A program made the position numbers and the translations under genes. Under the pieces are notes generated by a model. It did not search any database and was not told the DNA's origin. It saw only the letters and a list, made by a program, of their open reading frames with translations. A DNA stretch of 44,863 bases from an uncultured Ectothiorhodospiraceae bacterium (GTDB lineage Bacteria; Pseudomonadota; Gammaproteobacteria; UBA6429; Thiohalophilaceae): positions 1 through 44,863 of the forward strand of contig CAMYOL010000051.1 of NCBI GenBank assembly GCA_947260005.1, read 5' to 3'. This document shows, in pieces, positions 13,852-17,300 of this stretch. The first letter of the stretch is position 1, and the number at the start of each line of letters is the position of its first letter.

Positions 13852-15633
13852 TCAAGCCCGATCGACATGAGTTTGTAACCAGAACTCCAGCAAAGCCAAA
13901 TGCCACAACTTACTGCCCTGTAAGCGCGTAAAGTGTTGATCTGGCTCGGATAATAGCTTCTCAACATAGGCAGGCTGATATAAGCCTCGTTGCTGAGCCG
14001 CCGGCTGCAGCAAAATATCACGCATAAAATCGAGAAATTCACCCCGCACAAATTTTAGTGCCGGCATTGGAAAATAACCTTTGGGACGATCGATGACCGC
14101 ATCCGGCACGATACCACGCGAGATCTGCTTCAGTATGTGTTTACCACCACTGCCAAGTTTTAAATGAGGTGGCACCTGTGCAGCCAACTCAACCAGACCA
14201 TAATCAAGAAACGGCACCCGCGCTTCGAGCCCAAAGGCCATGGTCATGTTGTCTACCCGTTTCACAGGATCATCAACGATCAAGGTGGTCACATCGGTAC
14301 GCAACACCCGATCGATAAACTCATCCGCATCGGGCTCATTTAATAATTCTGCCATTTTGAGAGAGGTATAGTCTTCGCCGTGATAGCGTTTATTCACGGT
14401 CTCTAAAAATTCAGTATGATCACGGTCAAAATAATATCGACCAAAGCGATCGACGTACTCTCCATTAATATCCTCATGCATTCGTGGATACCAGAAATAT
14501 CCGGCAAACACTTCATCCGCACCCTGACCGCTTTGTACCACCTTCACACTTTGAGAAACCTGTTCGGATAATAAATAAAACGCCACCGCATCCTGACCAA
14601 ACATCGGTTCCGACATCGCTTGCACGGCCTCAGGTAATCTTTTTAAGACCTGATCATTGGCAATGTGAATCTTGTGATGTTGTGTTTTATATCTTTCAAC
14701 AACCTGATCAGAATATTCAAACTCATCGCCTTTTTCTTCGGGTTGATCTTCAAAACCAATAGAATAAGTTAATAAATCTTTTACATTACTCTCAGCAAGC
14801 AAGGCCACTAACAGGCTTGAATCCAGACCGCCCGAAAGTAAAACACCGACCGGAACATCAGCCACCATTAAACGTTTTCGCACCGCCTCGCGTAATTGAT
14901 CATGAATCCTGTCAGTCCATTCTTGATCGGTATAATTCTCTTTTGGACGTTGAGCCTTAAGATGCCAGTAACGGCGAGAGGTGGTTTTACCTTTTTTATC
15001 GATCATCAACGAAGTGCCGGGTTCAAGCTTTTTTATACCCGATAAGATGGTATGCGGTGCCGGAATAACGGCATGCAAGGTGAACTGATGGTGTAAGCCA
15101 ACCTTATCAATCGAAGTATCGATATTTCCTGCCGCTAGTAAAGCCTGCGTATTAGAGGCAAAACGAATAAAGTGTTCATTTCTTGAAAAATAAAAAGGTT
15201 TGATACCCATGCGATCACGAGCAATAAACAATTGTTTTTTATTCTGGTCCCAAATCGCAAAGGCAAACATACCATCTAAATATTCCGGGCAATGCTCGCC
15301 CCATTTGTGATACGCCTTCAAGATAACCTCAGTATCACCCTCGCTTTGGAATGAATAGCCTTCTTCAATAAATCGTTTACGTAACTCAGGATAGTTATAG
15401 ATAGCCCCATTAAACACGATCGTTAATCCTAATGCCGAGTCAAACATGGGTTGATTAGAACGCGATGATAAGTCGATAATAGATAAGCGCCGATGACCTA
15501 GCTGGATAACTTCATTTGACCAACTGGATTCAAAGTCCGGACCGCGCCGCGCTAATTCGGGTAACATTTTTTTTATTACATCAGGATTTAATGCCTGTCC
15601 ATCAAAACGTAATTCGCCACATATTCCACACAT
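13852..15633 (-). CDS. Asparagine-synthase-like amidotransferase, N-acetylglutaminylglutamine-amide clade
   Basis: This 593-residue glutamine amidotransferase must start at the ATG ending at 15633 so that Cys2 of MCGICGELRF is the free N-terminal nucleophile. The glutaminase domain (2 to about 210) has RRGPDFE and VFNGAIYNYPELR. The synthetase domain has the ATP loop LLSGGLDSSLLVALLA. Several stretches (LHHQFTLHAVIPAPHTIL, RPKGYFPMPALKFVRG, SKLWHLALLEFWLQTH) match, as I recall the family, the amidotransferase (TIGR03104) that amidates the dipeptide in the osmoprotectant NAGGN. Plain AsnB is the alternative. The usual partner, a GNAT/ATP-grasp NAGGN synthase, is not next to it. The gene lies 23 bases after the hydantoinase gene and is likely in its operon. 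Confidence 0.8.
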   Translation of the reverse strand: MCGICGELRFDGQALNPDVIKKMLPELARRGPDFESSWSNEVIQLGHRRLSIIDLSSRSNQPMFDSALGLTIVFNGAIYNYPELRKRFIEEGYSFQSEGDTEVILKAYHKWGEHCPEYLDGMFAFAIWDQNKKQLFIARDRMGIKPFYFSRNEHFIRFASNTQALLAAGNIDTSIDKVGLHHQFTLHAVIPAPHTILSGIKKLEPGTSLMIDKKGKTTSRRYWHLKAQRPKENYTDQEWTDRIHDQLREAVRKRLMVADVPVGVLLSGGLDSSLLVALLAESNVKDLLTYSIGFEDQPEEKGDEFEYSDQVVERYKTQHHKIHIANDQVLKRLPEAVQAMSEPMFGQDAVAFYLLSEQVSQSVKVVQSGQGADEVFAGYFWYPRMHEDINGEYVDRFGRYYFDRDHTEFLETVNKRYHGEDYTSLKMAELLNEPDADEFIDRVLRTDVTTLIVDDPVKRVDNMTMAFGLEARVPFLDYGLVELAAQVPPHLKLGSGGKHILKQISRGIVPDAVIDRPKGYFPMPALKFVRGEFLDFMRDILLQPAAQQRGLYQPAYVEKLLSEPDQHFTRLQGSKLWHLALLEFWLQTHVDRA

Positions 15634-15656: not shown

Positions 15657-17300
15657 CTAGTCGGCTTTGCCCCAACCTCCTCCTCCGGCCGTTTCGATAA
15701 CTAAACAATCATTTTTTTCTACGGTTGTACTGAATTTTGCAGGCATGACTACATTATTTAATTTGTTCACACCGCATTGACCATTCGCGCCACCCAAACT
15801 GCCCCATGGTGCATGCACTCGACGTTCTGTTAATAATGTCACTGTTGTTGTATCCGTAAATTCAAATTCCCGGATTAACCCATCACCACCTCGATGTTGG
15901 CCCAAACCACCTGTACCTTCTCGAATAGCATAGCGAATAACTCGCACAGGATAATTTGATTCCATCACTTCGACCGGTGTATTGCGCGTATTCGTCATGT
16001 GCGTTTGCACGGCCGAAAGTCCATCATGAATCGGACCCGCTCCCATACCACCCCCCATGGTTTCGTAATAATCCCAATGTCGGTCTTGATGTGCTCCGCC
16101 CCCATTTGAATTACCTCCATCGATTCTACCCCCATCGATTCTACCTCCATCGATTCTACCCCCATCGATTCTACTCCCTTCTATACTACCCCCTTCTATA
16201 CTACCCATAGCAATGTTATTCATACTGCCATGACTGGCCGCCGGAATTTTATCAGGGATTGCCTTGGCAAGTGCGCCCATCACGACATCAACAATTCGCG
16301 TGCTGGTTTCAACATTACCCGCCGCCACTGCAGCGGGTCGCTTGGCATTTAATAAACATCCTTCAGGAGCCGCAATGGTAATCGGTTTAAAACTGCCCTC
16401 ACACGCCGGTGTATAATCTGGCATTAAACATCGAAAGACATAATATACTGCGGCAGCAACGACTGACATGGGGCAATTAATGTTTCCTGTGGTTTGCGGA
16501 TCGGTGCCGGCAAAATCAGCATGGACAGTACTGTCCTTCACCTTCAATGTTAATTTGATGGCTAAGTCCTTATTACCAAGACCATCATCATCCATCACAT
16601 CATAAAATTGGTAGTCACCATTCGGTATCGATGCCAGCACGCCACGGGCGATGGTAAATGCGTATTCATTTAACTCATCGAGAGCGGTCTGATACGAAGA
16701 CACGCTGACTTTTTTTATTAAATCAGTTAAACGTATCACGCCGGTCCGGTTAGCACTGATCTGCGCCGCAAAATCGCCTTCACCGATGGTTTTATTGCGA
16801 GTGACATCCAGGATGGACTTCATCACCGACTGGATTATTTCGCCGCCTTTTAACAAGAGCTGAGGAGGTATCACAATACCCTCTTCCTCTAATGATTTCG
16901 ATATCGGCATCGAGCCCGGACTGTAGCCTCCAATATCAGCATGGTGAGCTCTGTTGGCAACAAAACCCATCAACTGTTCTGCAATAAACACGGGCGCAAT
17001 CAAAGTGACATCCGGTAGATGAGTCCCACCTAAAAACGGATCATTCACCACCACCATATCGCCTGCCTGCCAGTTAATATCCTTAACAATATCGCGCATG
17101 GCATAAGCCATACTGCCCAAATGTACCGGGATATGTGCGGCCTGGGCACATAATTCACCTTGCACATCAAACACGGCACACGAAAAATCCAGACGGTCAC
17201 GAATATTGGGTGAAAACGCAGCACGTTGTAATACCGCCCCCATTTCATCGCAGACAGCGTTTAGACGGCTCGAAAAGATGCTCAGTTCGATGGCATTCAT
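15657..17300 (-). CDS. Hydantoinase B/oxoprolinase-type subunit
   Basis: This 547-residue protein matches HyuB, the subunit that works with HyuA in ATP-dependent opening of hydantoins or 5-oxoproline. Family motifs include FSPNIRDRLDFSCAVFD, HIPVHLGSMAYAM, VVNDPFLGGTHLPDV, NRAHHADIGGYSPGSMP, YYETMGGGMGAGP and GGDGLIREFEF. Residues 366-395 hold an extra low-complexity repeat (GGRID units) made by a DNA minisatellite, placed just before HWDYYETMGGGMG where relatives have only a short loop. No HyuA gene is adjacent, which is unusual. The substrate is unknown. The ribosome site before the ATG is weak. It is probably transcribed with the amidotransferase gene downstream. Confidence 0.85.
   Translation of the reverse strand: MNAIELSIFSSRLNAVCDEMGAVLQRAAFSPNIRDRLDFSCAVFDVQGELCAQAAHIPVHLGSMAYAMRDIVKDINWQAGDMVVVNDPFLGGTHLPDVTLIAPVFIAEQLMGFVANRAHHADIGGYSPGSMPISKSLEEEGIVIPPQLLLKGGEIIQSVMKSILDVTRNKTIGEGDFAAQISANRTGVIRLTDLIKKVSVSSYQTALDELNEYAFTIARGVLASIPNGDYQFYDVMDDDGLGNKDLAIKLTLKVKDSTVHADFAGTDPQTTGNINCPMSVVAAAVYYVFRCLMPDYTPACEGSFKPITIAAPEGCLLNAKRPAAVAAGNVETSTRIVDVVMGALAKAIPDKIPAASHGSMNNIAMGSIEGGSIEGSRIDGGRIDGGRIDGGRIDGGNSNGGGAHQDRHWDYYETMGGGMGAGPIHDGLSAVQTHMTNTRNTPVEVMESNYPVRVIRYAIREGTGGLGQHRGGDGLIREFEFTDTTTVTLLTERRVHAPWGSLGGANGQCGVNKLNNVVMPAKFSTTVEKNDCLVIETAGGGGWGKAD
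16117..16206 (-). repeat. Six-unit 15-bp minisatellite inside the hyuB gene
   Basis: There are four units of CCATCGATTCTACCC type (with one-base variants in the last two positions), then two units of CCTTCTATACTACCC, end to end with no gap. Because 15 is a multiple of three, unit gain or loss keeps the frame. It encodes GGRID and GGSIE five-residue repeats in the protein. Confidence 0.95.

Follow-up and report, generated by a model that had tools for sequence, protein, structure and literature searches.

The window, by which we mean the whole 44,863-nt stretch of DNA analysed here, carries on its minus strand a hyuB-type gene (15657..17300) that is open from ATG to stop and encodes a protein of 547 aa, HyuB. 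The Hydantoinase_B profile PF02538 matches residues 3–545 with 630.3 bits (cut-off 26.8, E 3e-189), and the Pfam search of the protein returned no other family. HyuB is of the same fold family as the caprolactamase beta subunit CapB (6YRA). The metal ligands given for CapB, Asp41, His99, Asp102, and His124 (PMC8453981), align with D38, H94, D97, and H119 of HyuB, which are invariant in 11/11 aligned proteins; this correspondence was read by hand off the alignment and concerns the presence of the residues alone. We infer that HyuB is an active enzyme. Against the CapB equivalog model NF050157 the protein scores 195.7 bits, under the cut-off of 1000, and we therefore do not claim caprolactam as its substrate.

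The hyuA and hyuB genes of this family are generally adjacent or fused. Unlike that layout, the one HyuA gene (PF01968) found in the genome lies on a different contig from hyuB (G000:C65, about 64450–66567), and no HyuA was found near hyuB in 11 related loci, covered up to 4 kb on each side and less at contig ends. Around hyuB in these loci, some of them incomplete, we found argF and argD in 8/11, a putative membrane protein in 7/11, and an amidotransferase in 7/11. In the window, TIGR03104 (957.9 bits, cut-off 570.1) identifies the gene adjoining hyuB (13852–15633) as encoding an N-acetylglutaminylglutamine amidotransferase, although this gene also scores above the cut-off of the plain asparagine synthase model TIGR01536 (453.7 vs 267.1).

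The hyuB gene contains a tandem array of a 15-bp unit, called by TRF at 16112–16206 with 6.3 copies, 90% matches, and a score of 127. When the window was simulated 200 times under a first-order Markov model, no array scored above 68, and 199 of the simulations contained some array scoring at least 30; the next score in the window itself, leaving aside a 30-bp reading of the same array, is 43. In the reading frame of the gene, the array consists of seven units on the minus strand (16098–16202), which encode residues 367–401 and read SIEGG, SIEGS, RIDGG, RIDGG, RIDGG, RIDGG, and NSNGG. At the DNA level there are two units AGTATAGAAGGG(G/A)GT and four units AGAATCGATGG(G/A)GGT; unit 7, at the end, is degenerate. 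A single synonymous difference, GGG/GGA, alternates along the inner units 3–6 (RIDGG ×4; 16113..16172, minus strand), suggesting a recent duplication step of 30 bp. Together with a non-repeated tail, GAHQDRH, the array makes up a loop of 42 residues (367–408; 16077..16202, minus strand), so that 12 residues (NSNGG plus GAHQDRH) separate the last RIDGG unit from the conserved Trp409. The units are contiguous and nearly identical, and their period, divisible by three, preserves the frame. The array is real and of a familiar kind, an in-frame minisatellite inside an intact hydantoinase-B gene, as the initial annotation had proposed; the six units placed there at 16117–16206 belong to this array, shifted a little in register and lacking the worn seventh unit.

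A search of the 3.7-Mb draft genome with a 17-base pattern of the RIDGG-type unit, allowing at most one mismatch, gave four matches, all inside the array, and because the unit is confined in this way we reject an origin from a mobile element or from a family of dispersed repeats. A looser two-unit motif was not found outside the two array-bearing hyuB genes in the window, in a 157-kb sample of the same genome, or in one stretch each of the genomes of three congeners (G001, G002, and G003). Phase variation by frame shift is likewise rejected, since a 15-bp unit preserves the reading frame. GGG, the rarest Gly codon (9% of the Gly codons in 21 ORFs of the window, hyuB included), accounts for 5/13 Gly codons of the array, as expected from copying at the DNA level.

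Proneness of the genome to repeats was sampled over 202 kb. TRF (score at least 50) also reported there a 9-bp array of 19 copies, a 201-bp array of 6 copies, a run of nine TGG, and about a dozen arrays of 2–3 copies. The 9-bp array, CGGGAATGA, lies outside the window (G000:C51:48483–48656; L052 3620–3793) and is directly adjacent to a short inverted-repeat element, TTCCCGCGGAGGCGGGAA; the array seemingly repeats the end of that element. Another contig has 2.4 copies of a 24-bp in-frame repeat, GSNRGNAVGSNRGSAMGSS (L055 11881–11938, G000:C65), a second Gly/Ser-rich one in the genome, at the C-terminal tail of an apparent heavy-metal P-type ATPase, named by eye. The 201-bp repeat (L056 12616–13883, G000:C65; 6.3 copies, 73% matches) perhaps encodes a repeat-domain protein.

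To place the array among relatives, we compared HyuB loci across genomes. A match was present in 46/58 genomes searched, the window's own counted, and loop length, taken as the residues between the anchors AMG and WDYYET, was read in 29 of 30 HyuB loci (L005–L034), L017 being incomplete at a contig end. The loop has 42 residues in the window's species (G000) and in its congener G002, and 3–25 in the other 27 relatives. In two further congeners, which lack array units, the loop is 7 (G003) and 12 (G001) residues long. Among the relatives examined, only G000 and G002, two species in all, bear the array, at the same site and with seven units each. Pattern searches that require exact anchors, and hence undercount, found loops of 34–44 residues in 2/40 family genomes (G000 and G002; the order-level set for this pattern is the same 40 genomes), loops of 21–30 residues in 1/40 (G015), and loops of 31–40 residues in 0/40. 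In the class sample, the same kind of search found loops of 2–12 residues in 75/369 genomes and loops of 32–41 residues in 0/369, a range that just excludes the window's own 42. The HyuB loop of G015 (L007) has at this site a partial duplication of its own, in frame and independent of the array, WDYYEAENSKAWDYYET.

A tree of HyuB with the loop left out (28 rows from the 30 loci; L017, at a contig end, and L016, with a partial start, were dropped) groups G000 and G002 as sisters (98/87), followed by G003 (100/98) and then G001 (100/98). The arrays of the two sisters, compared here between species with one genome for each, have identical period, register, and copy number. Their inner units differ. 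Units 1–7 match between the species at 13, 12, 9, 8, 9, 7, and 11 of 15 positions, so the three edge units reach 36/45 (80%), like the flanks of the gene (78.4%), whereas the inner four reach only 33/60 (55%; binomial P 4.6e-5 against a flank identity of 0.784). None of 464 overlapping 60-nt windows of the flanks is as low; their minimum is 35/60. The inner unit is AGAATCGATGGRGGT in the window and AGTTCAGAAGGGAGT in G002, where the inner units read SSEGS in place of RIDGG. Within each species the inner units are alike: units 3–6 of G000 match at 14–15/15, units 3–5 of G002 at 15/15, and unit 6 of G002, in this register, at 12/15, its last codon differing. This contrast between edge and inner units is what repeat turnover yields. 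Weak constraint would also lower identity between the species but would not make the units alike within one, although relaxed constraint could contribute in part to the low inner identity. All 14 units keep Gly at position 4, and 13/14 keep an acidic residue at position 3, a pattern explained by descent from one unit that selection could also account for. The loop is hydrophilic in both species (Gly plus Ser 43% and 60%), but its net charge differs between them (K+R/D+E 5/7 and 2/9).

To view the array in a structural context, we turned to an AlphaFold2 model of HyuB (11 sequences, mean pLDDT 68, pTM 0.73). Compared with chain B of 6YRA it gave a VIA-align Z of 35.7 and an rmsd of 3.7 over 487 aligned residues; the model is poor at the array. 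It places the loop between two strands predicted with low confidence, one before it (residues 360–366, MNNIAMG; 16203..16223, minus strand) and one after it (residues 409–416, WDYYETMG; 16053..16076, minus strand), and pLDDT is below 50 at residues 354–359 and 361–441, a range that includes both. The initial annotation had argued that the repeats must sit in a surface loop if the enzyme works. A surface loop is plausible and moderately supported, in that the array replaces a loop of 3–25 residues in 27 relatives and is modelled between strands, within the region of pLDDT below 50. The CapB pocket is flanked, among other residues, by A365, I368, V386, and S389, and residues 358–531 form a barrel domain (PMC8453981). 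In two alignments, numbered by hand, A365 and I368 correspond to residues 358 and 361 or 360 and 363 of HyuB and, in the second alignment, V386 to about residue 416, so that the loop starts 4–6 residues past the position of I368 and ends about 8 before that of V386. By alignment, then, the array falls between two segments with pocket-lining residues, and at least four residues separate it from these.

Neither of the two solved structures closest to HyuB by sequence, N-methylhydantoinase and CapB, has a repeat at this site. Unlike HyuB, CapB has about ten residues (372–381, by hand count) at the place of the array. N-methylhydantoinase (7HK5, 9H03), the best sequence match among solved structures (profile E 1.4e-89), matches with part (703–1227) of a single chain of 1288 residues, and its aligned segment has a short stretch where HyuB has the array. 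Among the titles listed in a search of the open-access literature, a weak test of absence, none dealt with repeats in HyuB or oxoprolinase genes. Intragenic tandem repeats grow and shrink by slippage and recombination, according to a review (PMC3899988), and the HyuB array resembles the in-frame minisatellites described there in being head-to-tail, coding, and of a period divisible by three. Bacterial examples given in the review include phase-variation genes, chiefly surface genes, and coding repeats in pathogens are reported to be depleted in the middle of coding sequences. Unlike those examples, the HyuB array lies mid-gene (residues 367–401 of 547) in a metabolic enzyme; it was compared between species, with one genome for each.

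We consider it probable that the array arose once, on the stem of the G000–G002 pair, and that its inner units were then homogenised separately in each species within a tolerant loop. Slipped-strand mispairing or unequal recombination would have produced tandem copies of 15 bp at the beginning of the loop, which lies between two conserved HyuB segments, and the tree of this one gene points to a single origin in the common ancestor of the two species. Since 15 is divisible by three and the loop is flexible, growth would have been tolerated, and the product would be a linker of 42 residues rich in Gly, Ser, and acidic residues. Later turnover, separate in each species, would have overwritten the inner units with copies of one species-specific unit while the edge units retained older sequence. 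Independent origins of the two arrays, in a loop prone to duplication, are improbable: the inner units do differ between the species and a separate duplication did occur at this site in G015, but the arrays share period, register, and copy number, their edge units are similar (13/15, 12/15, and 11/15), and their bearers are sisters in the HyuB tree. A false expansion or collapse in assembly is more doubtful still. The two genomes with the array are drafts (81 and about 490 contigs) and G002 appears to be metagenome-assembled; however, substitutions distinguish the units, the array has unique edges, the array of 105 bp is shorter than the usual short read, and the presence of an array at the same place in a separate genome of another species makes misassembly less likely. 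Least credible is a function of the nucleic acid, in which repeated GGAGG/GGGGG motifs, spaced before an out-of-frame ATG, would signal the start or pausing of translation. The +1 frame of G000 is indeed open across the inner units, with one ATG in each. It is open in G002 too, but the inner units there lack the ATGs, and RNA folding is ordinary (z −0.88; 37/200 shuffles fold equally well). We set aside an alternative-frame ORF because the ATGs are not conserved in G002.

A role for the loop itself deserves more weight than these, yet we regard it as unlikely. The 42 residues could be under selection as a structural part of the enzyme, serving near the active site as a lid or docking arm and kept in length rather than in sequence. 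Both species hold 42 residues and seven units despite differing inner units, the flanking segments align to the CapB segments that contain A365/I368 and V386/S389, and HyuA is encoded elsewhere in the genome, so an extra contact element is conceivable. Against such an element, side chains and charge differ between G000 and G002, the loop has just 7 and 12 residues in two other congeners, and, as aligned, it starts 4–6 residues after I368 and ends about 8 before V386. Somewhat less likely again is the specific form in which a sequence-free lid or arm beside the active site is held at 42 residues while repeat turnover rewrites its content; if true, it would combine selection on loop length with concerted evolution of content at the DNA level within a metabolic enzyme. 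Under the preferred reading of one origin followed by separate homogenisation, the loop is most likely no more than a hydrophilic, tolerated spacer and would evolve nearly neutrally. The persistence of seven units in each species, though hyuB differs at 22% of its bases, argues against free slippage and may reflect a constraint on length. This equality, seen in two species, is the single observation in favour of such a constraint.

These results do not change views on the hydantoinase-B family or on bacterial repeats. They provide a two-species case of an enzyme loop built from DNA repeats, with no units in two congeners and seven in each of two sisters. As the sister arrays are of equal length but different content, with older edges, they offer a small natural test of selection on loop length versus selection on sequence.
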